Of a stretch of DNA of 64,000 bases, positions 4,969 through 62,730 are shown piece after piece (the first letter of the stretch is position 1; every line of letters starts with the position of its first letter). This DNA comes from Actinomadura rudentiformis (GTDB taxonomy: Bacteria > Actinomycetota > Actinomycetes > Streptosporangiales > Streptosporangiaceae). A program made the position numbers and the translations under genes. The stretch is taken from contig NZ_WBMT01000034.1 of NCBI RefSeq assembly GCF_008923185.1, positions 1 to 64,000 on the forward strand, in the 5' to 3' direction. The notes under the pieces were generated by a model. That model made no database searches and was not told the DNA's origin. It saw nothing but the letters and a program-made list of their open reading frames with translations.

Positions 4969-5349
4969 TCAGTTTTCGATGCGGCCGCCGCCTCCGCCGC
5001 TGGTAGTGGAGCGGACGCAGCTGAGGAAGTAGGAGTTGGTCAGGCCGCCGATCTCCTTGCTCCTGGTGATCCAGTTCGTCGAGGTGACGCGGCCGACCTC
5101 GTTGCCGTTGCCCGAATCGTGCGCACGGCACGTGACCGAGACGCTGAACGTGCTCGGGGCGAACGCAGTGATCAGAATCGCGCCGCGAGTCTCCGGGATC
5201 GAGCTGGTGGAACAGCCGTATGCGCCGTACGGGATGCTGCATGTGCGGGCCAACGCCAGCGCCGGTGTCGCGGGGACGACGACGATCGCCGCGGTGACAG
5301 CCATTGTGAGAGTCGCGCCGACGAACCCATGACGTACTGACTTCTTCAT
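4969..5349 (-). CDS. Small secreted protein with four cysteines
   Basis: 126 residues from ATG 5349, preceded by GGAGCGGAA. A classical signal peptide is visible: MKKSVRHG, a hydrophobic stretch (about 10-28) and a cleavage region PATPALALA. The mature part is about 95 residues with four Cys (TCSIPYGAYGC, VTCRAHDSG, LSCVRS) that could form two disulfides, and ends in a glycine run. I do not recognise a family. It is transcribed in the same direction as the AlkB-like gene, 287 bp upstream of it. Function unknown; an extracellular role is inferred only from the signal peptide. Confidence 0.7.
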   Translation of the reverse strand: MKKSVRHGFVGATLTMAVTAAIVVVPATPALALARTCSIPYGAYGCSTSSIPETRGAILITAFAPSTFSVSVTCRAHDSGNGNEVGRVTSTNWITRSKEIGGLTNSYFLSCVRSTTSGGGGGRIEN

Positions 5350-5605
5350 TTCCGCTCCGGTGGGGTCGGGGCCCTCATGGTTTCCCCGGCGATGACCCCC
5401 CACAAGCGCAAACCATGTCCGAGTCCGGCCGCCGGTCAGGTCGTGGTGCGTTCTGCGAGCTGGGACCTCAAGGCGTGGAGTATTGGCGAACGCAAGTCTT
5501 GCGGAGGATTGACAGGCTCGGGCCGCTCCGTCAATGTAAGCAAGCGCTTCTTTGGAATGCGGGAGTCGCTCTGCGGCATCGGGGGCAGGCGGAAGGAAGT
5601 CGGCG

Positions 5606-7282
5606 GTGCGAAGACCCCTGGTGTTCGGTGTCGCATTGTCCATCGCGTCGTCCGGCCTCGGTGCATGCTCGGACGCTCCGAGCGGCCCGTGTCGAACGGT
5701 CGTCGTCGCCGTGGCCGTTGGGGTGGCCGCTCCACTGCGTACCGCGGCCGCGCGGTTCCAGGGGACCAAGGTGGACGGGCGGTGCGTCTCGGTGCGGATC
5801 GAGCCAAGGTCCCCCGCGTCTGTCGCCGAAACCCTGGCAGGCACCGTCGAGGAGCCCGGCGCCCCTCCACCGGACGCGTGGATTCCCGATTCATGGCTCT
5901 GGGTGCCGCTGGCACGCAGCGGCAGCACAGGCGCCGCGGCGGTGGCCTCAGTCGAGCCCTCGCTGGCCAGCTCGCCCATCGTCTGGGTGCTCTCGGCGAG
6001 CACCGCCCGCAAGTTCAGCGCCCAGGGAATGAAGGCGAGCTGGCGCTCCCTCATGCCCGGCGGAATCCCCGACCCCCGGCAGCGAACGGACGCCGACGCA
6101 CCACGATTCGTCGTCCCCGAACCGGCCACCTCGACCACGGGAATGGGGCCGCTGCTGGCCCTGCACACCCTCGCCGGAACCGGACAGCGCGGCCTGCTGA
6201 ACTTCGCGACCGCGATGCTGGCCCTACGCACGATGACGGTCAAGGACCCCGTCGCGGTGCACGCTGCGGTCGGCGACACCGGACGGACCACCATCGGCGT
6301 TGCTTCCGAGCAGTCTCTGCTGGAGAACGAGGCGGTCGGCGAACGCAGCCTGGTGCCTGTCTACCCTGCGGAGGGCACGGTCGTGCTCGACTATCCGTAT
6401 GTCCGCGTCACCCACGACAGAAGCCAGGGCAAGGCCGCCGACGCCTTCGGCAGATTCCTCAGAGAACCGGCCACACGTGAGCTGCTGACCGACGCCGGCT
6501 TCCGTACCCCCGAGGGTCAAGCCGGCAGCGCCCTGGACCCCAAACTCGGCTTCACCCCGGCACCGCCCCGGCGAATCCAACTGCCCGACTCCCCCACCGC
6601 CGTGAAGATCCGCGACATGTGGAACCGGATGCGGCTGGGCGCCCGCTTGCTCGACGTCCTCGACGTCTCACCGTCCATGCGCCAGCCGGTGCCCGGCACG
6701 TCCACCAGCCGTCTGACCGCGCTCAGCCGGCAGATCCAGCAGAGCCTCCAGCTCACTCCCGATTTCGTGGAGATCGGGCTCTGGCAGTTCGCCACCAGGC
6801 TCGACGGCACCCGAGACCACCGCGAGGCGGTCCCCATCCGGGCGATGGGATCGGTCGACAACGGCGTCAGCCAGCGCGACCGGTTGATCTCAGCGGTCGC
6901 CCGCTCCAAGCCGATCCCCGGAACCTACACCGGCCTGTACGACACGATCCTGGCCGGCTTCCGCGAGGTCAGCCGCAATTACCGGCCCGAGGTCTTCAAC
7001 GTGGTGACCGTCTTCACCGACGGCGAAGAGAGCGACCCGTACAACGGCATGAAGCTCGACGAGCTGATCCGCACGCTCCGCCAGGAGTACGACCCCGCGC
7101 GCCCAGTCAGCATCATCATCGGCGCCTACGGTGACGACATCGACACCCGGCCACTCCAACAAATCGTGAACGTCACCGGCGGCAAGGTCTACTTGTCCAA
7201 GGACCCGCAACAAGCGCAGCGCATCTTCGGCGATCTGCTCGTACGCATGCTTTGCACCGGCACCCAGTGCCCGATCACCTAG
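5606..7282 (+). CDS. Lipoprotein fusing a periplasmic-binding-like domain to a von Willebrand factor A domain
   Basis: I place the start at GTG 5606 behind GGAAGGAAG, giving 558 residues and a lipoprotein signal (LVFGVALSIASSGLGAC). Residues to about 330 look like an extracellular solute-binding fold (VAAPLRTAAARF, DAWIPDSWLW, RFLREPATRELLTDAGFR). The C-terminal part is a VWA domain with an intact metal-site motif DVSPSM and a second segment VFTDGEESDP. Such binding-protein/VWA proteins are common in actinomycetes and are thought to act on the outer face of the membrane; the ligand is unknown. The frame is open upstream to 5552, but that start would put residues before the lipobox signal. Confidence 0.75.
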   Translation: MRRPLVFGVALSIASSGLGACSDAPSGPCRTVVVAVAVGVAAPLRTAAARFQGTKVDGRCVSVRIEPRSPASVAETLAGTVEEPGAPPPDAWIPDSWLWVPLARSGSTGAAAVASVEPSLASSPIVWVLSASTARKFSAQGMKASWRSLMPGGIPDPRQRTDADAPRFVVPEPATSTTGMGPLLALHTLAGTGQRGLLNFATAMLALRTMTVKDPVAVHAAVGDTGRTTIGVASEQSLLENEAVGERSLVPVYPAEGTVVLDYPYVRVTHDRSQGKAADAFGRFLREPATRELLTDAGFRTPEGQAGSALDPKLGFTPAPPRRIQLPDSPTAVKIRDMWNRMRLGARLLDVLDVSPSMRQPVPGTSTSRLTALSRQIQQSLQLTPDFVEIGLWQFATRLDGTRDHREAVPIRAMGSVDNGVSQRDRLISAVARSKPIPGTYTGLYDTILAGFREVSRNYRPEVFNVVTVFTDGEESDPYNGMKLDELIRTLRQEYDPARPVSIIIGAYGDDIDTRPLQQIVNVTGGKVYLSKDPQQAQRIFGDLLVRMLCTGTQCPIT

Positions 7283-7347: not shown

Positions 7348-7761
7348 TCACCGGTCAACGGTGATCTGCTGGCGGTCACCGGACCTGCCGATAGCCTGTG
7401 GCCTGCCACGCACGAACACCCGCGCCGCGCCGCCGTCGCTCAGCACCAGGGTCAGCGGAGCGATGTCGAAGTGTACGGACTCGCCGTGCTTGGCGTACCG
7501 GTTGAACAACACCTTGTTCCCCGCTGTGCTGGCGAAGACATGGCAACTGGCCCCGGTGACCGTCACGGTCACCAGCCGCTGGGCCGGGCTGGCCTTCTCA
7601 GCCACCGTCTCAGCGGGCGCGCTCGGCGATTCATTCCTGTCCAGCAGGCCCACCGTGAGCACGCCGCCGCCCACGCAGGCGAGCACGGCGACAAGACCGA
7701 TCGGTATCCCCACAGACATGACATGCCGCTTGGCGTTCACCTTTGCCCGGTGCCGAGCCAT
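7348..7761 (-). CDS. Single-pass membrane protein with DUF4115 (RodZ C-terminal-like) domain
   Basis: 137 residues. A basic N-terminus (MARHRAKVNAKRH) precedes one transmembrane segment (about 15-40), a linker rich in Pro, Ala and Glu, and an extracellular beta domain beginning VTVTVTGASCHVFAS and ending in VFVRGRPQ. That domain matches DUF4115, found at the C-terminus of RodZ-like morphogenesis proteins. The cytoplasmic HTH of RodZ is absent, so this is a stand-alone extracellular version. Convergent with the VWA lipoprotein gene (65 bp between). Function is inferred from the domain only. Confidence 0.65.
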   Translation of the reverse strand: MARHRAKVNAKRHVMSVGIPIGLVAVLACVGGGVLTVGLLDRNESPSAPAETVAEKASPAQRLVTVTVTGASCHVFASTAGNKVLFNRYAKHGESVHFDIAPLTLVLSDGGAARVFVRGRPQAIGRSGDRQQITVDR

Positions 7762-8297
7762 AGCCCGGAGGCTACAGCCGACACCCTCACCCGGCCAGAG
7801 GCACGTTCAAGCCCCGATCGCCACGATCGAGCCGCCCTGCACAATGCGCGGCCGTGGCGGGTGGGGTGTGATGCGGCTGTCCTGCGTCACGCCACTCAGA
7901 GCCGCCCGCAGGCCCGCTAGGTGTGGTGTGGGTCACAGATGAGTCGAGTGGTCTCGACGGCCTTCCTCTGTGACAGCGACGTACGGAGGCGCGATGAGGA
8001 AGGTCCGCTGGAGCTCATGGACACTCGCCGTTTCGGTTCTGGAAACGCGCTGCTCACGTACCGGCCAGGGCGAGTGTCAGGTATGTCACATCGACTTGCC
8101 CTCAAGTTTGGTTGAGGTTCCATCCTGAGGGGGTGGGACCAGCGCAGAATGTCCGAGGCTCCCGGAATACTCCTGGGACGAGCCGGGTTTAATCGCTCGC
8201 AAAGTGTCAGTCACTGCAGTATTTTCCAGTGACACCCCCAACATGATCTTTCACCTCTGGCGCCCGTGTGCCCGAGCCTGACGATTGGAAGTTTCAC
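7762..8297. other. Intergenic region without a supported gene
   Basis: About 535 bp between the divergent DUF4115 and MFS genes. Open frames here are short and have atypical composition. The stretch holds the SoxR-like promoter at 8096-8126. A 27-codon frame from ATG 8149 to TGA 8232 lies in the predicted leader but has only a weak ribosome binding site and no recognisable product. Confidence 0.6.
8096..8126 (+). promoter_or_regulatory. SoxR/MerR-type operator-promoter upstream of the MFS exporter
   Basis: CCTCAAGTTTGGTTGAGG at 8100-8117 is an inverted repeat CCTCAA-N6-TTGAGG, matching the half-sites of the SoxR box. TTGCCC (8096-8101) and CATCCT (8121-8126) flank it with a 19-bp spacer, the long spacing typical of MerR-family promoters. 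It reads toward the exporter at 8298. No soxR gene is in the window. Confidence 0.55.
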
Positions 8298-9833
8298 TTG
8301 ACCGCCCCAGCATCCCCAAAGGTGGCCGACACTCCACCGGAACCCTCCGGTTCCGGCGGTGGCCTTGATCGTGGCGTGCTCGCGGTGGCCATGGTCGTCG
8401 TGCTCGGCGCGATCATGTCCATCCTTGACGTGACCGTCGTCAATGTCGCGATCAACGACCTCGCCAAGGAGTTCAAGACTCCGCTCGCGACCATCCAGTG
8501 GGTGGCCACCGGTTACACCCTCGCGCTCGCCACCGTCATCCCGATCACCGGCTGGGCTTCGGCGCGGTTCGGCACCAAGCGCCTCTACATGATCTCGATC
8601 ACGCTCTTCGTGCTGGGGTCGATGCTGGCCGGCGCGGCCTGGTCGGCCGAGTCGCTCATCGCGTTCCGCGTACTGCAGGGCCTCGGCGGCGGCATGATCA
8701 TGCCCGCCGGCATGACGATCCTCACCCAGGCCGCGGGCCCGTCCCGGGTCGGCCAGGTGATGAGCGTCGTCGGCATCCCGATGCTGCTCGGCCCGATCAT
8801 GGGCCCGATCCTCGGCGGCTGGCTGGTCGATGACGTGTCCTGGCGCTGGATCTTCTTCATCAACCTGCCGATCGGCATCATCGCGCTGGTCATGGCCGCG
8901 CGGATCCTCAAGCCCGACAGCCCGCAACGCGGCGAGCGCCTGGACTTCTTCGGGCTGCTCCTGCTCTCCCCGGGTCTGGCCTTGCTGATCTACGGTCTGG
9001 CCAAGGGCGCGGAGCTGGGCGACTTCACCGAGACCGAGGCGCTCATCCCCACCGTCATCGGCGCCGCGCTGACGGTCGCGTTCGTCTTCCGCGCGCTCAG
9101 CGCCGAGAGCCCGCTCATCGACCTGCGCCTGCTCAAGCGCCGTTCGGTGGCCGCCGCTTCGGGCACCATGGTGCTCTTCATGGCGGCGTTCATGGGCGCC
9201 ATGCTGCTGATGCCGCTGTACTACCAGTCGGTCCGCGGCGAGGGCGCGCTCATGTCCGGCCTCCTGCTCGCTCCGCAGGGGCTCGGCGCGATGGTCACCA
9301 TGCCGGTGGGCGGCAAGCTCACCGACAAGATCGGCCCCGGCCGGGTCGTCCTGGTCGGCCTGACGGTCGTCGTGTTGTCGGTGGCCGGCTTCGCCGCGCT
9401 GCTGCAGGCCGACACCTCCTACTGGAGCCTTGGCGCCGTGCTGTTCGTGATGGGTCTCGGCATGGGCATGACGATGATGCCCACCATGGCCGCGGCCATC
9501 CAGACCCTGGTGCACGACGAGGTGCCGCGGGCCAGCACGATGCTCAACATCATCCAGCAGGTGTCGGCGTCCGTGGGCACGGCGATGATCGCGGTGCTGC
9601 TCGCCAACCAGCTGAGCGACAGGCTCGGCAGCGGTGGCGGCGGCGAGATCGGCTCGGCGGAGAAGGTCCCGCCGGAGGTCCTCGCCAAGATCGCGCCTCC
9701 GATGGCCGACGCCTACCAGCACACCTTCTGGTGGGCCGCGGGGCTGCTGCTCCTGGCGTTCCTGCCGGCGCTCCTGCTGCCGCGCAAGAAGCCGGCCACT
9801 TCGGCGGTCGACGCGCCGATGCCGATGCACTAG
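8298..9833 (+). CDS. DHA2-family (EmrB/QacA-type) MFS drug exporter
   Basis: About 511 residues from a TTG at 8298, which sits 7 nt behind GGAAG; a GTG at 8268 is an in-frame alternative without a good ribosome binding site. The protein is almost entirely hydrophobic, as expected for 14 membrane segments. It shows LDVTVVNVAI in TM1, the antiporter motif C variant LLGPIMGPILGGWL in TM5, and WRWIFFINLPIG, both hallmarks of proton-coupled DHA2 exporters. It probably expels amphiphilic drugs or a metabolite. The SoxR-like operator upstream suggests induction by redox-active compounds. Confidence 0.88.
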   Translation: MTAPASPKVADTPPEPSGSGGGLDRGVLAVAMVVVLGAIMSILDVTVVNVAINDLAKEFKTPLATIQWVATGYTLALATVIPITGWASARFGTKRLYMISITLFVLGSMLAGAAWSAESLIAFRVLQGLGGGMIMPAGMTILTQAAGPSRVGQVMSVVGIPMLLGPIMGPILGGWLVDDVSWRWIFFINLPIGIIALVMAARILKPDSPQRGERLDFFGLLLLSPGLALLIYGLAKGAELGDFTETEALIPTVIGAALTVAFVFRALSAESPLIDLRLLKRRSVAAASGTMVLFMAAFMGAMLLMPLYYQSVRGEGALMSGLLLAPQGLGAMVTMPVGGKLTDKIGPGRVVLVGLTVVVLSVAGFAALLQADTSYWSLGAVLFVMGLGMGMTMMPTMAAAIQTLVHDEVPRASTMLNIIQQVSASVGTAMIAVLLANQLSDRLGSGGGGEIGSAEKVPPEVLAKIAPPMADAYQHTFWWAAGLLLLAFLPALLLPRKKPATSAVDAPMPMH

Positions 9834-9871
9834 AAGATCACCGAGCGACCCCGCCAGGGGCGCTCAGCGGC

Positions 9872-9950
9872 CGAACGCCCCGGTCCAGGGATCAACTCCC
9901 CGGCCCGGGGCGTTCGCCGTGTACGGGCCCCTCAGCGCCCTCAGGGCGCT
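9872..9950. terminator. Two consecutive hairpins after the MFS gene
   Basis: Arms CGAACGCCCCGG (9872-9883) and CCGGGGCGTTCG (9905-9916) are perfectly complementary over 12 bp. A second hairpin, AGCGCCC (9934-9940) with GGGCGCT (9944-9950), follows. There is no T tract, which is common for actinomycete terminators. They lie 38-117 bp past the exporter stop. Confidence 0.6.
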
Positions 9951-10223
9951 CTCAGACGAGGCACCTCCTACCAGAGCCGCCCCAGGCCCGGCCACCGCCA
10001 AACGGGGCCATCCCAGACCGAACCACTCCCGCCAGAGCCGCCTCAGGCACGGCCCGCCCGAGACCAGACCGGGCCACATCACAGGGGCCGCCCCAGACCA
10101 GGAGCAGGCTCAGGCCCGAGCCGCCCAAGACCGGGTGCCGCCTCGAACCGGGCTGCCGAGACCACGTGCCGCCTCTGACCGGGTGCCATCTCAGACCGGG
10201 TGCCGCCACGGGCGGGAGCGGCC
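9951..10223. repeat. Degenerate GC repeats, ending in five ~17-bp tandem units
   Basis: No gene is supported between the exporter and the convergent acyl-CoA synthetase. The segment is built of variants of ccgcc-cagac-cgggc. From 10130 to 10211 these become ordered: units with the core ACCGGGTGCCGCCTC begin at 10130, 10147, 10161, 10178 and 10195 (period 17, one unit of 14). They sit immediately 3' of the synthetase stop codon. Confidence 0.6.
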
Positions 10224-49616: not shown

Positions 49617-51284
<1,668 letters not shown>

Positions 51285-53745: not shown

Positions 53746-53933
53746 AGGTACTCCGCAGGAGACGGAAAGAATTGTGTCTCCCTGCTCATACCCGCGACTC
53801 CGATAACGGAAGCCTTCAATTGCGGGGATAAATTGCCTCTTTTCGCGCCCGTATGATCATCTTTTAAAGGCGAAGATCCCGAGTCAGGCGATTGGGGACT
53901 GGACGGACATGGACGCGCGGCGTTCGCTGGCGT

Positions 53934-54698
53934 ATGTCTGGGGATCGCGGCTTCGGGGAGGCGGTCGTGCGACAACGGACAGGCTCCAGCAGGTCATGGC
54001 CGGCCGGCACGTTCCTCAGCCGGCTCAGCGAGCAGAGCCGGGCGAGGCTGCTCGGCCTGGGGCGGTTCCATCCCGTCCCGCCGCAGCGGGAGCTGGTGCG
54101 GCAGGGCGAGCCCGGCGGGTCGGTCTGGCTGCTGATCGACGCGCTGGTCAAGGTGAGCGCCCGGGTGGAGAACGGGACTGAGGCCCTGCTCGCGTTGCGG
54201 GTGAGCGGTGACCTCATCGGGGAGATGGCCGTCCTCGGCGAGCCGGTGCGTTCCGCGACCGTGACCACCTGCGGCCGTGCGGTCGTGAGCCAGATCAAGG
54301 GCGGCGCCTTCGTCGACCTCCTCCAGCACGATCCGGCCGTCGCGCTGACGCTCAACCAGATGACGATCGAACGCCTGCGATGGTCGAATCAGCGGCGCCT
54401 CGACTTCGCCGGATACGAGACCAGCCGGTGCCTGGCCCGGGTGATGCTGGCCCTGGCCGGGCGGCACGGCCAGCCGTGCACGGACGGGATCGATCTCGGC
54501 ATCCCGCTGACCCAGGCCGAACTGGGCGGGCTGGTCGGCGCCAAGGAGGCGACCGTGCAGAAGGCCCTCCGCGAGCTCACCTCCATGGGCCTGGTCACGA
54601 CCCCGGGCCGGCGGCGAGTGATCATCACCGACGTCGAGGGGCTCCGGACGTTCGCCGATCTGTCCCGCTTGGGACAAGTTACGGCGAACCCGGATTAA
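53934..54698 (+). CDS. Crp/Fnr-family regulator with intact cyclic-nucleotide pocket
   Basis: 254 residues from ATG 53934 (MSGDRGFGEAVVRQRTG); a TTG at 53892 is an alternative. The cNMP-binding barrel contains the phosphate-binding-cassette-like GDLIGEMAVLGEPVRSATV, where the Glu and the Arg that grip cyclic nucleotide are kept. The HTH reads LTQAELGGLVGAKEATVQKALRELT. It is followed 62 bp later by a class III cyclase-like gene, which makes cyclic-nucleotide control of this protein plausible. First gene of the candidate four-gene system. Confidence 0.88.
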   Translation: MSGDRGFGEAVVRQRTGSSRSWPAGTFLSRLSEQSRARLLGLGRFHPVPPQRELVRQGEPGGSVWLLIDALVKVSARVENGTEALLALRVSGDLIGEMAVLGEPVRSATVTTCGRAVVSQIKGGAFVDLLQHDPAVALTLNQMTIERLRWSNQRRLDFAGYETSRCLARVMLALAGRHGQPCTDGIDLGIPLTQAELGGLVGAKEATVQKALRELTSMGLVTTPGRRRVIITDVEGLRTFADLSRLGQVTANPD

Positions 54699-54760
54699 TC
54701 CGGCTTCACCCCTCCGGTCGTCGCCGACGCTGTGCGTCAGGCCGATCACCTGGAGGGAAG

Positions 54761-55561
54761 ATGCACGACCACCCCGTTCCCGAGTACCGCGTCCTGTTCA
54801 CGGTCGACATCGAGGACTACAGCAGCCGGAACGACGCCGAGCAGCGGACGTTGCAGAGCGCGCTGAGCCAGATGCTCGACGACGCTGCGGACTCGGCCGA
54901 GCTGAACCGGCAGGCCTGGGAACGGCAACACGGCGGCGACGGCGTCTACGCGATCCTTCCTGCCGGAACGAACGTGACGCCGCTGATGGACACCTTCGTC
55001 CGCGAACTGGACGCCGCGCTCGGCTCGTACAACCGGCGCCGTCACGATGTGGCATGGAGCCGCCTGCGTCTGCGGATGGCCGTCCACATAGGTCCCGTCC
55101 ATCTGAACGGCGCGATGGGCTGGCCGGGGCAGCACGCGGTCCAGCCTGCACGGCTGCGGGATTCCAAGCCGCTGCGCGCCGCGATGGGCGCACTCTCGGA
55201 GGCCGACCTCGGTGTGATCGTGTCGTCGGAGATCTACCGCGACTACATCACCCAGGGCCCTGGCGAGCCCCGGCCGACGCTCTTCCGGCCAGTCCGGGTG
55301 GAGATGAAGAAACAGTCGTACACCGCCTATCTCTACGTGCCCCGCTTCAACCTGCACAACATCGAGGCCCTCGCGGCGTACGCCCCGTCCAGCGGAACCG
55401 AAGGCGGCGACCCACCGCCCGCCGGACGATCCCCGGCCGCAGCGATACCCGCCGATAGGGCTGGCCACGTCAACGTCGCCTACGGAGCGGGCGATGCGTT
55501 TACCGGCGACAAGGTCGGCGGCAACAAGAACACCTCCTACGGGGACCACCACGATGGCTGA
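54761..55561 (+). CDS. Class III nucleotidyl-cyclase-like protein with C-terminal signalling motif
   Basis: 266 residues from ATG 54761 behind GGAGGGAAG. The cyclase domain covers residues 8-190: LFTVDIEDYS with metal D16, GGDGVYAILP with metal D60, VHIGPVHLNG, and QHAVQPARLRD in place of the usual VNxAARL. Both metal Asp are present but the Asn/Arg pair for catalysis is not clear, so activity is uncertain. After a Pro/Ala linker, residues 240-257 read AYGAGDAFTGDKVGGNKN, almost identical to residues 66-83 of the next protein. The stop overlaps the next gene by 8 bp. Confidence 0.75.
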   Translation: MHDHPVPEYRVLFTVDIEDYSSRNDAEQRTLQSALSQMLDDAADSAELNRQAWERQHGGDGVYAILPAGTNVTPLMDTFVRELDAALGSYNRRRHDVAWSRLRLRMAVHIGPVHLNGAMGWPGQHAVQPARLRDSKPLRAAMGALSEADLGVIVSSEIYRDYITQGPGEPRPTLFRPVRVEMKKQSYTAYLYVPRFNLHNIEALAAYAPSSGTEGGDPPPAGRSPAAAIPADRAGHVNVAYGAGDAFTGDKVGGNKNTSYGDHHDG

Positions 55562-57566
55562 TGACGAAGCCGCCACTGAGGCAGTCGAGGCGAAGGGCCA
55601 GGTACTCGGCCCGCAGGAGCGGCACGAGAACGACGGTCTCCGCACGCCGCCCGAGGCGAAGCTGAGCGCCGCCGAGCAACGCCGGTTCTCCGAACAGCTC
55701 CGTGAGCTGCGAACCGGCTTCATAGCCGGAGCAAGCTCACGGAACGCGGCCTATGGTCCCGGCGACGCGTTCACCGGTGACAAAGTCGGAGGCGACAAGA
55801 ACATCTTCATGGCCGGCGAGAGGCGCGACGGCTGGATCGTCTCCCCCGTCGCCGCGGAACGCAACCGCGACATCAGCGCCCGCTTCGCCGGAACCCCCAC
55901 CAAGGAATGCCTGATAGGTCTCCTTGACGACAACCTCGTCGCGGTCCTGAAGGGGCCACCCGGCACCGGCCGCAAGACCACCGCCCTCGCCGCGCTCGCG
56001 CACCGTCAGGACGAACTCCGCAGCCTCCGCGCCAAGGAGTCCCCCGCGCTCCTGGAGAAGAGCAAGCTGCAACCCGGTCACGGCTACCTGTACGACGCGA
56101 CCGGAGCCACGTGGACCAAGCGCCTCACCGAGGCGGACATCCTCGGCTGCAGCGAGGTGCTCGCGGCGGTGGGCGCCCGCCTCGTCATCCTGGTGGGCCT
56201 GGACTCCGACACCCGGGCGTTGCCAAGCCTCGTCGCGGAACACCTGCAGCCCGACCCCTGGGACGTTCTCAAGCGCCAGCTCCATGACCGGCTGCCGGTC
56301 GGGCAGCACGACGTGCAGGCCATCACGGACCAGGTCACGGTGCGCCTGTCCAGCCCCGGCGACGCTCGCGACCTCGCCCTCGCGATCGTGAACGGCCTGC
56401 CGAAGGGGCGCACGGTCGGGGAGATCTGCGCCGAGATGCTCGGCCCTCTCCGGCGCGAGGCACGCAAGGTGCTCCGGCAGGAGGAGGACGAGAAGGATCT
56501 CGGCCGCCGCGCCTTCGTGATCGCGGGCGCGGTGCTGGACGGCCTGCCGACCGTGCAGGTCTGCCGGGCGGCCTACGACCTCGCCAAACTGCTGTTCAAG
56601 GTGGAGAAGCAGGGCAAGCGCGCCCGGCTCGGGCTGCTGCCGTTCGCCGACATGCTCGACGACTGGCTCGGTCACGCCGGCGAGGAACGGTCGTACGTCG
56701 TCCAGGAGGTCGACCGGACCCTCTCCTTCCGCGCGGGATTCGCCCCGGCCGTGCTGGACGCGGTCTGGCTCGACTATGTCGTCGCCCACAAGGCCTTGCT
56801 CGAATGGCTGACGGGTCTGGCGGAAAACGAGGCCGGCGATCCGGTCACGCGGTTGAAGGTGGCCCAAGCGATCGCGTGGTTCGCCAGGTACGACTTCGAG
56901 TTCGTCTACAAGGAGTGCATTCGAAACTGGTCCGAGAGCAGCTCCGAGGCGTTGCACATGGCCGCCGCATGGGCCCTTGAGGCGATCGCAGCCGCATACC
57001 CGTCCAGGCATCCCCGCGTCGCGCGGCTCGCCTGGGAGTGGGCCAAGGAACGTAACTTCCGGCTACGGTCGACCGCCGTGCGCCTGTTCGGCACACTGCT
57101 CGGCGCGGAGGCCGCCGACGAGGCCCTGCGGGCGCTCTACGCTCTCGCGTGGCGCGATCCTCTCGTCCTTCGTCATGCCGTTCGGGACAGCGTGGTGGAG
57201 CTCTTCAGGGACGCCCCCAGCACGGTTCTGCGTGAGCTCCTGGTCTGGAGCAGGTCTCCGAAGCCGTTGCTGCGCCAGCTCGTGGCAGGCGCGCTGGCGC
57301 GGATCGCTCTGCTTCCCTACACCGAACGACCAGCAGTGCTGGCCCAGTACGCGGAGGATCCAGCCACCGTGGGCGAACTCTGGCTCCGCGTCCTGACGTC
57401 ACGTTCCTGCGGCCACGAACCGTGGAACGCCCTTCGCGAGTGGGCCAAGGCAGGGGTCGACTTCGCGGACCTGCGAACCCACCTCTATGCCGAGCCGGCC
57501 CTGCGTCCACGGCTGCGTTTCTACGGGCTCGCCCCCACCACCCCTTCGAAGGAGTCGTCAGCATGA
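55554..57566 (+). CDS. P-loop NTPase with N-terminal signalling motif and helical-repeat tail
   Basis: 670 residues from ATG 55554, overlapping the cyclase stop. Residues 1-60 are acidic and helical, 66-83 are the motif AYGPGDAFTGDKVGGDKN, and Walker A is KGPPGTGRKTTALAAL (K141). RLVILVGLDSDTRALP is a possible Walker B. The C-terminal half (about 420-670) consists of HEAT/ARM-like helical pairs (AWALEAIAAAYPSRHPRVAR, RSTAVRLFGTLLGAEAADE). This is STAND-like: N-terminal motif, ATPase switch, repeat sensor. The family is not one I can name. Coupled to the next gene by ATGA. Confidence 0.7.
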   Translation: MADDEAATEAVEAKGQVLGPQERHENDGLRTPPEAKLSAAEQRRFSEQLRELRTGFIAGASSRNAAYGPGDAFTGDKVGGDKNIFMAGERRDGWIVSPVAAERNRDISARFAGTPTKECLIGLLDDNLVAVLKGPPGTGRKTTALAALAHRQDELRSLRAKESPALLEKSKLQPGHGYLYDATGATWTKRLTEADILGCSEVLAAVGARLVILVGLDSDTRALPSLVAEHLQPDPWDVLKRQLHDRLPVGQHDVQAITDQVTVRLSSPGDARDLALAIVNGLPKGRTVGEICAEMLGPLRREARKVLRQEEDEKDLGRRAFVIAGAVLDGLPTVQVCRAAYDLAKLLFKVEKQGKRARLGLLPFADMLDDWLGHAGEERSYVVQEVDRTLSFRAGFAPAVLDAVWLDYVVAHKALLEWLTGLAENEAGDPVTRLKVAQAIAWFARYDFEFVYKECIRNWSESSSEALHMAAAWALEAIAAAYPSRHPRVARLAWEWAKERNFRLRSTAVRLFGTLLGAEAADEALRALYALAWRDPLVLRHAVRDSVVELFRDAPSTVLRELLVWSRSPKPLLRQLVAGALARIALLPYTERPAVLAQYAEDPATVGELWLRVLTSRSCGHEPWNALREWAKAGVDFADLRTHLYAEPALRPRLRFYGLAPTTPSKESSA

Positions 57567-58462
57567 GCACCCTGAAAACGGCCTGCACCCATCACGGCCC
57601 CGTCCAGAAGGTCCAGCTCCATCCGGCGGCAGGTACCCGGCTGTGGAGGTGGCTTCGCCGGACCGGAGACGAGTCCCGCGCCGTCCACTGGCCGGACACG
57701 TTCGACTTCAAGGTCCCCGCGATGGGCGACGGCTACGAGTTCTCCATCAGTGTGCCCTTCACCTGGTGCGTCACCGGCCGGGCGTACCCCGAGGTGCTCG
57801 TCGGCCGCGCCCTCGACAACCGGACCGCGCTGCTCGAACGGCTCGTCGCCCGCGTCCGCGGCGTGTCCCGGCTCTTCCCGCCGTTCGAGGCGGGCGACGC
57901 CGAGGCCCGCGTCCACCTGGCGATCGGCGAGGTGTTCAACGGCACCCGGCTGGCGTTCGTCTCGGCGGCCGGGGCCGATGGCGACGCCCGCCCGATCGAG
58001 CACCGGACCGTGCTCCGGCTCGACAAGCCGGTGCGCAAGGCCCAGCGCGAGGCCTGGAGCAGGCGGCAGGAGGAGACGAACCGGCACGAGCTCGCCAGGC
58101 TGCTGGCGTTGCAGTTCGGCGAACGCCGGGAACTGTGGCACGAGTTCCTGCAGAGCGGCCGGAACGACTGGCTCACGCCGTACGCCGTCGCCCTGGCCGA
58201 CAATCCCGAGTCCGTCGACGAGATCGTCCGGAAGATGACCCAGGATCGCCGGACCCAGGCCAAGGAACTCGCCGACCATGTGGTCAGCACGGCCAGGGCG
58301 TACGACAAGATGGACGCCTTCGACCTGATGCTGCACAACGACCGGGTGCTGCGGCATCTGATGGAGCTCATGGGCGTGCCCGGTCTCCCTCCGCCCAACC
58401 CGTCGCCCTTCGAGACCGGCAACGAGGCCGGAATGGACGAGGCTAGCGGCGGAGGAGGGTGA
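57563..58462 (+). CDS. Hypothetical protein, fourth gene of the cyclase/NTPase operon
   Basis: 299 residues from ATG 57563 behind GAAGGAG, overlapping the NTPase stop by 4 bp. The N-terminal part is beta-rich (TFDFKVPAMGDGYEFSISVP, FTWCVTGRAYPEVLVGR) followed by a helix-rich part with many charged residues (RKAQREAWSRRQEETNRHEL). A strand block feeding long helices resembles SPFH/band-7 proteins, but no membrane anchor is visible, so this is only a suggestion. The last 25 residues are Pro/Gly-rich. It could be the effector or an adaptor. The 3' end overlaps the convergent DUF305 gene by 20 bp. Confidence 0.6.
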   Translation: MSTLKTACTHHGPVQKVQLHPAAGTRLWRWLRRTGDESRAVHWPDTFDFKVPAMGDGYEFSISVPFTWCVTGRAYPEVLVGRALDNRTALLERLVARVRGVSRLFPPFEAGDAEARVHLAIGEVFNGTRLAFVSAAGADGDARPIEHRTVLRLDKPVRKAQREAWSRRQEETNRHELARLLALQFGERRELWHEFLQSGRNDWLTPYAVALADNPESVDEIVRKMTQDRRTQAKELADHVVSTARAYDKMDAFDLMLHNDRVLRHLMELMGVPGLPPPNPSPFETGNEAGMDEASGGGG

Positions 58463-59012
58463 GCATCTGGTCGATCTGGGCCGCGCGGGAGCGGGCCACG
58501 CGGTCAGCGAGGCCCTTGGCCTCCGGGTTGGTGCCCGCGGCGACCTCGCGACGGGCCATCTGGAGGGCGTCGTCCTGGTGGGCGATCAGCATGTTGAGGA
58601 AGTCTCGTTCGAACGCGGCACCGGTGGTCTTGCCGAGGTGTTCGATGGCGGCCTCGCTGGTCATCGGCATGCCGCCGTGCGCGCTGTGGGACCCCGCCGG
58701 GGCGGTGGGCGGCCGCCGCCACGAGCGCAGCCAGCCGGCCATCGACCTGATCTCGCTGATCTGGGTCGTTTCGATCGCGGCGGCGAGCGTGCGGACGTCC
58801 GGACGGACGTCGGGGCGGGCGGCGCGGTCACGGGCGAGCCGAGCGATGCGGACGCCTTGGCCGTGGTGCGGCACCATCATCTGCAGGAACATCACGTCAG
58901 CCGAGTTGAACGTGCCCGGCGGGGTGTGGTCGCCGCAGCTGTTGAGCAGAAGGGCGCCCGGGGGCAGGGCCAGGGCGACGCAGATCGCGATTCTCTTGAG
59001 GCCTCGTTTCAT
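58443..59012 (-). CDS. DUF305 lipoprotein
   Basis: 189 residues from ATG 59012, behind AAGGAC. Lipoprotein signal ALALPPGALLLNSC. The DUF305 pattern is complete: DVMFLQMMVPHHGQGVRIARL, a helix pair ending in EIRSMAGWL, the Met/His motif HGGMPM, and FLNMLIAHQDDALQMARRE. DUF305 proteins are four-helix ferritin-like lipoproteins, possibly copper-binding. It follows the chitin LPMO gene, a copper enzyme, on the same strand, which makes a copper-supply role possible but unproven. Confidence 0.85.
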   Translation of the reverse strand: MKRGLKRIAICVALALPPGALLLNSCGDHTPPGTFNSADVMFLQMMVPHHGQGVRIARLARDRAARPDVRPDVRTLAAAIETTQISEIRSMAGWLRSWRRPPTAPAGSHSAHGGMPMTSEAAIEHLGKTTGAAFERDFLNMLIAHQDDALQMARREVAAGTNPEAKGLADRVARSRAAQIDQMLTLLRR

Positions 59013-59087
59013 CTGAGTCCTTGGTGAGTCGCCCCGGCGCCGGGCCCGCAGGGGGGCGGTCGGCGGGCCCGGCACCGGAGCGGGTTT

Positions 59088-59939
59088 TCAGGCTGCCTGC
59101 CAGAGGGCGGGGGTGTTCGGCGGCTCCCAGCCGGAGATCGCCGTGTGCGGTTGCAGGCAGCGGTAGGTGGTGCCCTGGTAGGTGACCTGGTCGCCGGCCC
59201 TGTAGGCGGTGCTGGCGGTCCAGGTGCCGGTGCCGCTCGGCGGCGGTGTGGCGGGTGGCGGGGTGTTCGGCGGTGGCGTGCTGGGCGGTGGGGCGGGCTC
59301 GTTGCCGCCGCCGAAGTCGACGTCGGAGCAGGTGTAGAACGCCTCGTTGCTGCCCACCACGCGCTGCCAGATCGAGTAGATCAGGTGGCGGCCGGTCCGG
59401 CTCGGGATGTTGATCGTCCAGTTGGTGAACGTGGTGGGGTTCTGGTTGTTGAACGTCTGGATGTGCACCAGGTCCGACCAGCGGAGCGGCTGCGACGGGC
59501 TCCAGCCGGCGCGGGTGATGTAGAACTCGAAGTTGCTGTTCGCGTGCGGGGCGCTCGCGTGGTAGGTCAGCCTGAGCGGCCCCGCGGAGATGCGCTTGGC
59601 GGGCCAGTCGGTGCGGACGAGGTCGAGGCCACGGTATTTCTCCCGGCCCGCGCTGCACAGCTTGCCGTCGGGGATGAGCTGCCGATGGCGGCCGCCCGCT
59701 TCGAGGAGGGAGACCTCGTTCCAGTCGTAGAACGCCTGGGTGCCGCCGGCGGCGACGGCCGCCTTGCACGCGTTGGACTTGGGGTTCTCGGGGCCTTCCT
59801 GCTTGCAGACGTACACCCGGCTCGGCGGGTCGGACATGGTGCCGTGGGCGCTGGCCGGGGCTGCGGGGAGCACGACGGCGACGATGGCGGAGACGGGCAG
59901 GGTGGCGGTCACCAGAGCGACCTTGGATCTGGTTCGCAT
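59088..59939 (-). CDS. Chitin-active AA10 lytic polysaccharide monooxygenase with CBM5/12
   Basis: 283 residues. The signal peptide ends at ASA, leaving H32 as the mature N-terminus (HGTMSDPPSR), which with the second His in HASAPHANSNFEFY forms the copper histidine brace. After a Pro-rich linker (PPPSTPPPNTPPPATPPP) the C-terminal CBM5/12 reads WTASTAYRAGDQVTYQGTTY and ends HTAISGWEPPNTPALW. It oxidatively cleaves crystalline chitin. It lies 68 bp downstream of a GH18 chitinase, its natural partner. Confidence 0.92.
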   Translation of the reverse strand: MRTRSKVALVTATLPVSAIVAVVLPAAPASAHGTMSDPPSRVYVCKQEGPENPKSNACKAAVAAGGTQAFYDWNEVSLLEAGGRHRQLIPDGKLCSAGREKYRGLDLVRTDWPAKRISAGPLRLTYHASAPHANSNFEFYITRAGWSPSQPLRWSDLVHIQTFNNQNPTTFTNWTINIPSRTGRHLIYSIWQRVVGSNEAFYTCSDVDFGGGNEPAPPPSTPPPNTPPPATPPPSGTGTWTASTAYRAGDQVTYQGTTYRCLQPHTAISGWEPPNTPALWQAA

Positions 59940-60007: not shown

Positions 60008-61597
60008 CTAGGGAAGGGTGTCGAGGAACGGGCCGACGGTGCGGGCGAAGCCGCCGCCGTTGGCGACATCCCAGTTGACGGACCACGTCATCGCGCCGCG
60101 GATGTCCGGATACGTCCGTGGCGGCTTGAACGATCCGCAGTTGGTCCCGCGGGCGAGGCAGTTGAGGGCGTTCGTGACGACCGACGGCGCGACGACACCG
60201 CCTCCCGCGGCGCCAGCGCCGGCCGGGAGCCCCAGGGAGACCTGGTCGGGCCGCAGCCCGTTCTCCAACTGGATGCACGCCAGCGCCGTGAGGAAGTTGA
60301 TCGTGCCCTGGCCGTACACCTGCTGGTCGCAGCCGAGCATCGAGCCCGAGTTGTAGTACTGCATGTGGACGACGGTGAGGATGTCCTTGATGTTCAGCGC
60401 GAGCTGGAAGTACGAGCCGCTCGTGGACTGCATGTCGATCGTCTGCGGCGCCATCGTGATGATCAGGCCCGCGCCCGCCCTGGCGCGCAGTTCGCGCAGG
60501 GCCTGGGCCATGTAGGTCGGGTTGAGGCCGTTCTCCAGGTCGATGTCGACACCGTCGAAGCCGTAGCCCTGCATCAGCCCGTACACGCTGTTCGCGAACG
60601 CCGTCGCGGCCGCCGGGCTGCTCACTTGGATCGCCCCGCGCTCGCCGCCGACCGAGAGGATGACCTTCTTGCCGCGGCTGTGGAGCGTCTGGACGTCGGC
60701 TTTGAACTGCGCGTCCGTGTAACCGCCGAGCGCGCTCGACAGACCGGGATCGACGCCGAAGACGACCTGGCCCGGCGTCGTGGTCGCCTCGCCGAACGCG
60801 ATCGCGACAAGGTCGTACTCGGCGTTGGCGTCCGCGAGCCGCAGCTCGGTCGCCGCGTTGACGAAGTTGTGCCAGTAGCCGGTCAGGAAGTGCTTGGGCA
60901 GCGGACCGGTCGCGCAGCCGCTGGTGGTGCCGGTGGCCGGCGCGCTCGCGGCCGACTCGCCGGCGGTGTTGTAGGCCTTGACCGTGTAGGTGTGCGTCGA
61001 GCAGGACGCCAGTCCGGACACGGTCGCGGTCGTGCCCGTGACGGTCGAACGCAGGCTCGTGCCCTCATAGACGCGATAGCCGGTGACGGTGCCGCTCGCC
61101 GCCGACCATGAGAGCGTCAGCGAGGAGTTGGTCCGCGCCGTCACGGCGGGCGTCCCCGGCGCGCCGGGCGCACCTGGCGTGCCGGGGTCCTCACCGGTGC
61201 AGGACGCGCCACTGAGAGTGCAGTTCTGCGGCGTTCCGGAGCCGCCGGCGACGAAGCCGAACGAGACGGACGCGCCAGGCGCGATCGTGCCGTTGTACTC
61301 GCGGTTGCGGAACGCGGCGTGCTGCCCGGAGGTGGTGAGCAGCGCGTCCCAGTAGGTGCCGAGGCTGGTCCCGGCTGGGAGGTCGAACTCCACCCGCCAG
61401 GAGGAGCTCGCGCTTCCGGAGCCGTTGGTGATCGTGTACTTGCCCTCGTACCCGGAGCCCCATTCGGAGGTCTTCGTGAAGGTCGCGGTCGGCGCCGCGG
61501 CCGCGGCGCCCCCTGCGGTCACGGCTCCGTAGGAGCCGGGGACCGCCAGGGAGAACAGGAGGAGGGGGACGGCGAGGAGGGTGAGGAGGCGGTGCAA
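60008..61597 (-). CDS. GH18 chitinase with CBM2 and FnIII domains
   Basis: 529 residues from TTG 61597, placed there because CTTGGAGCG precedes it and a signal peptide starts (LLTLLAVPLLLFSLAVPGSYG). Domain order: CBM2 (37-134, Trp-rich with two Cys), FnIII (148-227) and the GH18 barrel (235-529) with the intact DGVDIDLE motif (catalytic E355) and SVGGERG. It hydrolyses chitin. The LPMO gene lies 68 bp downstream. A palindrome (61662-61678) and a GGACCAAACCACT site (61769-61781) upstream are candidate control sites. Confidence 0.92.
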   Translation of the reverse strand: MHRLLTLLAVPLLLFSLAVPGSYGAVTAGGAAAAAPTATFTKTSEWGSGYEGKYTITNGSGSASSSWRVEFDLPAGTSLGTYWDALLTTSGQHAAFRNREYNGTIAPGASVSFGFVAGGSGTPQNCTLSGASCTGEDPGTPGAPGAPGTPAVTARTNSSLTLSWSAASGTVTGYRVYEGTSLRSTVTGTTATVSGLASCSTHTYTVKAYNTAGESAASAPATGTTSGCATGPLPKHFLTGYWHNFVNAATELRLADANAEYDLVAIAFGEATTTPGQVVFGVDPGLSSALGGYTDAQFKADVQTLHSRGKKVILSVGGERGAIQVSSPAAATAFANSVYGLMQGYGFDGVDIDLENGLNPTYMAQALRELRARAGAGLIITMAPQTIDMQSTSGSYFQLALNIKDILTVVHMQYYNSGSMLGCDQQVYGQGTINFLTALACIQLENGLRPDQVSLGLPAGAGAAGGGVVAPSVVTNALNCLARGTNCGSFKPPRTYPDIRGAMTWSVNWDVANGGGFARTVGPFLDTLP

Positions 61598-61661
61598 GAT
61601 CGCTCCAAGGGCCAGGTGGACGGAACGCGGAACTCCCCCGAACCCCGAGACGACTGATCCA

Positions 61662-61678
61662 ATAGGAAGGTTTCCTAT
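61662..61678. promoter_or_regulatory. Palindrome upstream of the chitinase
   Basis: ATAGGAA (61662-61668) and TTCCTAT (61672-61678) form a perfect 7-bp inverted repeat with a 3-bp spacer, 65-81 bp upstream of the chitinase start. A likely operator; the regulator is unknown. Confidence 0.45.
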
Positions 61679-61805
61679 GAATTTGATTGAAGGTAACCGC
61701 CCCGTCACACCGGGGCAAGGCCTCTCGAAAAGTCCGGAAAACGGCCCGCGCCAACCACCCCAGGTGGCGGACCAAACCACTTCGGGCGACCGGATAATCA
61801 GCACA

Positions 61806-61838
61806 AATTGCCAGCAGGACTCAGCCCTGCTGGCAATT
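61806..61838. terminator. Strong hairpin after the intradiol dioxygenase
   Basis: AATTGCCAGCAGG (61806-61818) and CCTGCTGGCAATT (61826-61838) form a perfect 13-bp stem with a 7-nt loop, 26 nt past the dioxygenase stop. On the minus strand a T-rich run follows, as in intrinsic terminators. Confidence 0.75.
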
Positions 61839-61863
61839 GATGCCACTCCTTACAGGGGAATCG

Positions 61864-62730
61864 CTAGAGACGCACGGCCAGCTTGGCGTTGAGGCCACCG
61901 CTGACATTGCCGGTCATGGTCGCCATCTGGGAGTCATGGCCGTCACCGAAGACCATGTCGTCCTCCAGCGACGTGCGGGCCATCGTGCTCACGCTCTCCG
62001 AATATCCGGAGGTCGCGTACACCGCCTTGCAGGTGTCCTCGGGAAAGGCGAGCTGCGATGTCTTGACGCTCTTCGACCCGCGTGTGGCCTCGGCAAGGCT
62101 GCTGAAGACCTCGAAATGGATATGCGGCCAGCGGCCCGAGTATGCGGCGGGGAAGATGCTGACGAAGCGCACCACGCCGCTCGCGTCGGCCGCCTGAACG
62201 CCGCGCAGGTAGTTCTCCTTGGTAACGGCCTCGGAGTACATCGAGTAGTTGCCGTCGCGGTCGCAGTGCCACACATAAACCGCCGCCCCCTTGGAGGCGG
62301 TGCCATTGTCGGTGACGGTGAGCTCGATCGTCAGTGGCACGCCCTGAGCGACCGTCCGGCTCGCGCTGGATCCGAAACTCGACCGGATGTCGCGGCGCAC
62401 GATGCCGCTCTCCGTGAGGGCGTTCGGCCCGTTCGTGCCGTCCCCGGGGAACGGCCCTGCGGTCTCGTCGGGAATCTCCCCGCCCCCGGTGGCGGCGGTG
62501 GTCGTGGTGCCGGCCGTGGCACTCGTTCTCGATCCGCTGCCACCACCGCTCCCGCCATCATCAGCGCAGCCCACGGCGCCGATCAGCACCGCGCCGCCGA
62601 GCATGCCGAGCGCCGCCCGCCGGTCCAGCTGCCGCAGCCGGTCTGGCTGCCGGAACCGGTCGAGTTGCCGCAGCCGCGCCAGGTCGAACGCGAGCCCGCG
62701 GTCGTGAAGATCATCATGCCGTTCGTTCAT
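61864..62730 (-). CDS. Exported intradiol ring-cleavage dioxygenase-like protein
   Basis: 288 residues. A Tat/lipoprotein-like signal DRRAALGMLGGAVLIGAVGC (C55) follows an N-terminus with three copies of the R-[LF]-RQ-[LP]-D-R unit. The intradiol beta fold shows Fe(III) ligand candidates Y162 or Y165 (NYSMYSE), Y197 and H203/H205 in YSGRWPHIHFEVF. Exported intradiol dioxygenases of actinomycetes are thought to act on lignin-derived or extracellular aromatics. A hairpin terminator follows the gene. Confidence 0.85.
   Translation of the reverse strand: MNERHDDLHDRGLAFDLARLRQLDRFRQPDRLRQLDRRAALGMLGGAVLIGAVGCADDGGSGGGSGSRTSATAGTTTTAATGGGEIPDETAGPFPGDGTNGPNALTESGIVRRDIRSSFGSSASRTVAQGVPLTIELTVTDNGTASKGAAVYVWHCDRDGNYSMYSEAVTKENYLRGVQAADASGVVRFVSIFPAAYSGRWPHIHFEVFSSLAEATRGSKSVKTSQLAFPEDTCKAVYATSGYSESVSTMARTSLEDDMVFGDGHDSQMATMTGNVSGGLNAKLAVRL

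Follow-up and report, generated by a model that had tools for sequence, protein, structure and literature searches.

Why should two adjoining bacterial genes whose products are of different kinds encode nearly the same short amino acid sequence? The question arises from a stretch of 64,000 nucleotides of Actinomadura rudentiformis (contig NZ_WBMT01000034.1, positions 1 to 64,000; “the window” in the following), in which a cyclase-like protein and a neighbouring NTPase share a short segment, here called the tag. An earlier note on this DNA had described an 18-residue motif common to the C-terminus of the cyclase and the N-terminus of the NTPase, with two residue differences, and this description is correct: AYGAGDAFTGDKVGGNKN forms residues 240-257 of the cyclase-like protein (55478-55531), and AYGPGDAFTGDKVGGDKN forms residues 66-83 of the NTPase (55749-55802). 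The shared motif is real, and it exemplifies a pattern which is both strong and general. The domain assignments of both proteins in the following list are predictions, and the cyclase is regarded as the effector.

54761..55561, forward strand: protein with class III nucleotide cyclase fold, 266 amino acids; domain approximately residues 1-198, variable linker 199-237, tag 238-258.
55472..55534, forward strand: effector-side tag, cyclase residues 238-258, NVAYGAGDAFTGDKVGGNKNT; 20 of 21 and 21 of 21 residues identical in the two closest relatives.
55554..57566, forward strand: STAND-like P-loop NTPase with C-terminal HEAT-like repeats, 670 amino acids; overlaps the cyclase gene by 8 bases.
55743..55805, forward strand: NTPase-side tag, residues 64-84, NAAYGPGDAFTGDKVGGDKNI; between a predicted helix (39-63) and the P-loop domain, predicted disordered; 20 of 21 residues identical in the closest relative.
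55830..56453, forward strand: P-loop NTPase domain, residues approximately 93-300, with the Walker-A-like motif GPPGTGRKT.
56439..57551, forward strand: HEAT-repeat-like helical solenoid, residues approximately 296-666, from the structure model.

The two 18-mers are identical in 16 of 18 residues, while 10 of their 54 nucleotides and 9 of their 18 codons differ. The difference in codons had also been pointed out before; seven of the nine changed codons are silent, which has a probability of 0.0009 under random change, and eight of the ten differing bases occupy third codon positions. If the whole cyclase is compared to the whole NTPase by BLASTP, a single stretch with E < 1 is obtained, and this is the tag, extended to 20 identities in 30 positions (E = 9e-9). 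The local tag score of the window pair is 99, compared to 65 as the best among 3600 comparisons with shuffled tails (18 loci), and the NTPase 18-mer matches the 10.7-megabase host genome at the two tag sites only (E <= 10). Neighbouring genes can exchange sequence, and one could think of a recent DNA duplication, gene conversion or chance as the origin of the tag identity. We give this explanation an exceedingly small probability in view of the position of the differing bases, of the endings which each side keeps for itself in the window and in its two closest relatives (GNKN on the cyclase, GDK[NH] on the NTPase), and of the recurrence of the match in 50 out of 56 pairs with different tags. 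Chance and duplication at the DNA level are ruled out by the silent codon changes, the BLASTP E value and the recurrence across pairs.

This recurrence was observed in a study of 75 loci including the window. They comprise all eight named ones, the strongest matches of the cyclase and NTPase searches, and others taken from further down these lists, covering a part of all matches; L056-L058 duplicate L003-L005 and were excluded. Profiles served to locate the genes of cyclases, NTPases and SARPs. Nineteen loci have no adjoining NTPase, and the other 56 were all kept as pairs, with 51 cyclase-fold proteins and five SARP-type regulators as effectors. For each pair the tail of the effector (its final 45 residues) was scored against up to 200 residues from the N-terminus of the adjoining NTPase, with 1000 shuffles.

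The effector tail matches its own NTPase N-terminus above shuffled tails in 50 of the 56 pairs (p <= 0.01), and for 48 of the 56 at most 5% of the partners from other clusters score as high as the own partner. Summed over 32 representatives of tag clusters the own-pair score is 1893, compared to a mean of 965 for random pairings (standard deviation 51, maximum 1254), and 0 of 100,000 random pairings reached the own-pair sum. Shuffling of partners corrects only partly for relatedness, and the clustering by tag serves as a safeguard. As the matching within pairs lies far beyond random over 32 dissimilar clusters, groups of loci have a tag “address” of their own, i.e. the tags of both partners co-diversify. 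Examples are the tag pairs AHVRADKVVGGDEITYL / ARVRAQKVVGGDEITYI (L127) and VSGAGSNVATYGAQTNHQNF / VSGQGSNIATYGNQYNVQQF (L072), while FKVKKGDMTFGDHYG is found in both partners of L129. The cyclase of L004 is 64% identical to that of the window, yet both L004 partners carry a different tag type. An initial comparison of 33 pairs from 18 clusters agreed with this. In it the own partner did not always score best: several were outranked within their cluster of similar tags, and those of L063, L064, L067, L069, L070, L074, L078, L082, L084 and L093 by partners from other clusters as well.

This co-diversification over 56 pairs strongly supports the layout that had been proposed for the window, namely that of bacterial amyloid signalling sequences (BASS), with one motif shared by the C-terminus of an effector and the N-terminus of a neighbouring NLR/STAND-like NTPase. 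It suggests that the tag may be a plug which connects a sensor to an output, and from the sequences compared it is very likely that the tag couples the two proteins.

Among close relatives the tag is retained while its surroundings vary. Between the window and protein P0003 the cyclase domain is identical in 182 of 198 residues, the linker in 22 of 39 and the tag in 20 of 21; the value of 22 of 39 for the linker holds for both of the two closest cyclase relatives. Between the NTPase of the window and P0087 residues 1-35 agree in 17 of 35 positions and the tag in 20 of 21. In the remoter relatives P0005-P0008 the cyclase tag (12/21 to 15/21) is not better kept than the domain (0.71-0.78), and in P0090-P0094 the NTPase-side tag shows 15/21 or 16/21 identities versus 0.51-0.57 in the P-loop part.

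A wide occurrence of the motif in unrelated proteins had been named as an observation that would speak against the BASS-like layout. Among 150 genomes of the taxonomic family only the present pair was matched (E <= 0.01), and among 65 genomes of the genus six out of eight matches (E <= 1) lie in such pairs; the two matches outside, in G233 and G237, are weak (E 0.23 and 0.79) and look like chance. The cyclase-like family is widespread (129 out of 200 genomes of the taxonomic family, E <= 1e-8), whereas its close form with at least 60% identity is sporadic (5 out of 65 genus genomes, the window’s own counted). A protein search with the cyclase gave 85 proteins (counting the query itself) and one with the NTPase gave 15, and several tag types occur at their tails or N-termini. 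The NTPase-led search found 18 places in 17 out of 100 genomes, and a wider one in 296 genomes of the class, in which three candidates per genome were scored, found five with a match, two of them outside the family.

All 18 places of the NTPase-led search adjoin either a cyclase (14) or a SARP (4), so that the remark in the earlier note that a cyclase would be an unusual partner does not hold: in this family the cyclase is a common partner. As most loci of the pair set were reached from the cyclase side, its ratio of 51 cyclases to five SARPs is biased, and 14:4 is the fairer figure. The five SARPs all possess Pfam BTAD above the cut-off, and four of them also Trans_reg_C. The effectors are thus interchangeable. 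Both kinds occur together in one operon (L144, 2281-6089, overlapping L079, 5719-6477), where the SARP, the NTPase and a downstream cyclase carry HNEFHEKVDARGATFG, LNAFHDAVTADGATFG and QNNFYDRVDASDATFGIG; judged from these sequences, it is a putative branched output with one sensor, two outputs and a single tag type.

The cyclase is further associated with a regulator. A Crp relative is located directly upstream of 45 of the 51 paired cyclases and of 6 of the 19 unpaired ones. Near the five SARPs the fetched stretches revealed no such relative. An economical reading could be that a cyclase needs a reader of its product, while a SARP, itself a transcription factor, does not. The regulator of the window and the last gene of the operon are:

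53892..54698, forward strand: Crp/Fnr-type regulator with cyclic-nucleotide-binding domain and Crp helix-turn-helix (PF00027, E 2.3e-14; PF13545, E 3.4e-13); the ATG at 53934 may be the true start.
57563..58462, forward strand: fourth operon gene, 299 amino acids; its ATG overlaps the NTPase stop codon by 4 bases; without tag.

The explanation to which we give moderate credence is that the STAND-like NTPase activates its effector through homotypic assembly of the tags, probably of an amyloid-like kind, and that the output is transcription. The NTPase with its HEAT-like sensor region would change its state on a cue, and thereby expose or cluster its N-terminal tag. This tag would assemble homotypically with the near-identical C-terminal tag of the effector, probably in an amyloid-like contact with beta-templating. 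The assembly would gather cyclase domains and switch them on, and the Crp-type regulator, whose gene lies immediately upstream, would respond to the cyclic nucleotide. Class III cyclases act as dimers. Where a SARP replaces the cyclase, tag assembly would act directly on the transcription factor. Joint diversification of the tags within a locus would prevent cross-talk of parallel systems. The homotypic assembly of the tags and its amyloid nature, the activity and product of the cyclase, the cyclic nucleotide as messenger, the cue and the transcriptional output are reasoned predictions of this explanation, whereas the shared tag, its co-diversification, the exchange of effectors and the association with Crp were observed. 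The tags resemble each other and do not complement each other, which is expected of homotypic assembly.

Several observations weigh against this explanation, and are presented here and in the next three paragraphs. Six of the 56 pairs miss p <= 0.01 (L055, L074, L115 with p 0.033, L117, L119 and L128); among the NTPase-led places this means that the tag match fails in L117 and L119 and is weak in L115. In L055 the N-terminal part of the NTPase lies in another frame than the rest, and a weak tag match remains there (E 0.04). As an aside, this frame break may be a frameshift or a sequencing error. On the side of the NTPase no Pfam family is found above the cut-off, the Walker A motif has Arg where Lys is usual, and the best fold match of the structure model, which is predicted to consist of a P-loop domain and HEAT-like repeats, is weak (EfAvs5 by Foldseek, E 3.7e-4, template modelling (TM) score 0.22). 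Searches of Pfam, NCBIfam and PADLOC with the cyclase and the NTPase gave weak and unconvincing matches only, the best in PADLOC having an E value of 0.014.

By eye, 14 of the 19 unpaired cyclase tails show no tag-like element, which speaks in favor of the explanation. The other five, L090 and the group of L130, L132, L133 and L143, have tag-like tails and no matching NTPase in the fetched stretch. In this group the tag-like tails (such as GPQAHVHYNYGTVTVNG) go along with a Crp relative upstream and no adjoining NTPase, and a partner may be encoded elsewhere. L090 belongs to the window’s own genome. It encodes a Crp-like/cyclase fusion (5135-6280, forward strand) ending in FEGDLKVEGDLVMGNKIIIRD, and near it on the opposite strand a P-loop protein of 926 amino acids (7400-10180, reverse strand) beginning with ARFAGDSVARDKIIHVGG. 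These two sequences may form a further tag pair, with a score under the cut-off applied.

A further point concerns the amyloid nature of the contact. The window tag shows no significant similarity to published motif peptides (p 0.06 for sigma, 0.09 for Methanothrix, 0.82 for BASS3), and its assignment as a BASS3/RHIM, sigma or Methanothrix-type motif was therefore rejected. This would suit a homotypic or docking contact without amyloid, in which the short segments co-fold into a beta or mixed complex of the usual kind, with no templated polymerisation; the tags are short, that of the window contains charged residues (Asp, Lys), and the same co-diversification would be expected. We regard such a contact as somewhat unlikely. 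The mutual resemblance of the tags, together with a disordered sequence rich in Gly, Asn and Asp, fits beta-arch motifs: in the monomer models both tag regions lack secondary structure and have a predicted local distance difference test score (pLDDT) below 50, which in the NTPase extends over residues 62-92, tag included. Moreover, among 120 tails (56 paired and 64 database tails, partly overlapping) 13 match the archaeal aggregating peptide from Methanothrix at p <= 0.01, six match sigma and one BASS3, with 1.2 expected. A RHIM-like tetrad is found in 33 of the 120 tails versus about 6% in shuffles, and is only a hint because the tetrad was chosen after looking. By analogy, resemblance instead of complementarity, residue make-up and disorder in the monomer models fit homotypic beta assembly as in HET-s, RHIM and BASS. 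Amyloid-like tag assembly would let the system work like an NLR amyloid signalosome, and we do not file it as a member of BASS.

The second group of opposing points concerns the cyclase. Gln56 (45/51) and Val127 (42/51) occupy, in a tentative register, the sites of the base-specifying Lys/Glu and the transition-state Asn of classical class III cyclases. As the residues that fix the base and the transition state are replaced, activity or substrate of the cyclase is uncertain, and its product may be non-standard or the domain inactive. Furthermore, the pattern of a phosphate cassette is present in just 29 of the 45 Crp relatives (the regulator of the window carries GEMAVLGEPVRSA, presumably such a phosphate-binding cassette), and the operon with SARP and cyclase (L144/L079) shows no Crp relative in the fetched stretch. 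The cyclase domain could be catalytically dead and act as a dimerising or nucleotide-binding module, with a signal that does not pass via cyclic nucleotide. The change of both positions in most members would agree with this, although we consider it unlikely, because Asp16, Asp60 and an arginine are invariant in 51 of 51 cyclase loci and a cyclic-nucleotide-binding regulator adjoins 45 of these cyclases and was found beside none of the SARPs. Asp16 and Asp60 are assumed to be the metal-binding aspartates, with their position taken from a weak alignment to Ma1120. Inactive cyclase domains are reported from other prokaryotic conflict systems in passages of PMC7159879. The known class III cyclases CyaC and Ma1120 differ from the present proteins in the base-specifying and transition-state positions, which are changed here, and in the C-terminal tag present here.

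The fourth gene leads to another explanation of the shared tag. A third protein, e.g. the product of this gene, might bind the same tag on both proteins and so join them, as a shared epitope would also account for the resemblance. The family of the fourth gene is present in 41 of the 56 loci, including four of the five SARP loci, from which we had expected it to be absent; 12 of the 15 remaining loci have another frame of more than 340 codons on the same strand in its place. L137, by contrast, has no candidate frame at this position. In the fourth protein itself no tag was detected (0 out of 21 tested at p <= 0.01, while the same comparison detected it in 20 out of 21 NTPases), and its binding site would need to change in step with both partners. 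A third-protein binder thus appears quite unlikely to us. The fourth gene, translated from its second codon (57566), gave no Pfam family above the cut-off, and its product may resemble SPFH/Band-7 proteins.

Some features of the proposed tag assembly are known from other systems. The NTPase model has EfAvs5/AVAST5 STAND proteins as its first and fifth Foldseek matches, both weak (TM score 0.22-0.24), and in distinction to them it possesses a tag and a disordered N-terminus and no enzymatic N-terminal domain. Pycsar consists of a cyclase and a TIR or transmembrane effector with a cyclic-nucleotide-binding domain; the cyclic-nucleotide-binding neighbour in the window is instead a Crp-type helix-turn-helix regulator. 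The death-like adaptor domains of EAD/bDLD systems are folded. For these systems PMC7159879 and PMC8195603 (Kaur et al. 2020, 2021) describe cyclic nucleotide cyclases which adaptor domains tie to STAND-like NTPases; some of the cyclases are inactive, and CRP-like regulators occur now and then. A matching adaptor on NTPase and effector, which can be a cyclase, and a CRP-like regulator linked in some peptide-processing systems are common to both, while the adaptors there are domains, and here a tag of about 20 residues lies in a predicted disordered segment.

BASS (Dyrka et al. 2020, through PMC7889193 and PMC8086366) comprise ten families, a number which is called conservative (PMC7889193). 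They are located at the N-terminus of an NLR and at the C-terminus of a Bell protein, while CHAT and TIR are rarer partners. Detection methods for such motifs (PMC8086366, PMC12261475) and BASS3 fibrils (PMC7885112) are also described. The adjacent genes, the short motif on the effector C-terminus and on the N-terminus of an NLR or NLR-like NTPase, the locus-specific motif families and the occurrence in filamentous actinobacteria are shared with the present loci. Here, however, the usual Bell effector (also CHAT or TIR) is replaced by a cyclase-fold protein or a SARP, and a Crp regulator and a fourth gene are added; aggregation is reported for a BASS3 peptide. In AfsR a SARP is fused to a NOD, and binding of ATP relieves the inhibition of the SARP by NOD and TPR (PMC10936776). 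A NOD module thus controls a SARP in one fused protein, compared to the split, tag-joined arrangement here, and we count this precedent for control of a SARP by a NOD in favor of the explanation above. Actinobacterial cyclases were surveyed in PMC2447327. Among the literature matches listed (title and start of abstract, with subscription papers mostly outside), none described a motif of this kind that links a STAND-like NTPase to a cyclase or a SARP.

We tentatively propose that actinomycetes use a large and diversifying set of homotypic, amyloid-like address tags, which plug one STAND-like sensor family into interchangeable transcriptional outputs, with each locus insulated by its own tags. 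The outputs would then be a cyclase with a possibly non-standard cyclic nucleotide and its dedicated Crp reader, or a SARP activator. Prion-like signalling would in this case end in a second messenger and gene expression, and not in membrane-targeted cell death. The many natural pairs with one receptor family, two unlike effectors and 32 dissimilar tag clusters represent a test set for the determinants of tag specificity, with cyclic nucleotide or transcript as the measurable output.

Two minor observations remain in the window. At the end of the Crp gene a perfect palindrome was found:

54690..54703, no strand: palindrome CCGGATTAATCCGG, spanning the Crp stop codon; candidate operator.

It is the sole match with up to two mismatches in the window (0.15 expected). 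The palindrome is identical in L072 and L055, agrees in 13 of 14 positions in L003, and is altered yet palindromic in L004, L059 and L060. As the best match in 29 of the 45 loci is below 10 of 14 positions, near the level of shuffled sequences, it is a mere candidate for an operator of the Crp regulator. The neighbours of the operon appear by their sequences to encode a cholesterol oxidase (49617-51278), a DUF305-type protein (58443-59075), a chitin-active monooxygenase (59088-59939), a chitinase (60008-61846) and an intradiol dioxygenase (61864-62730).

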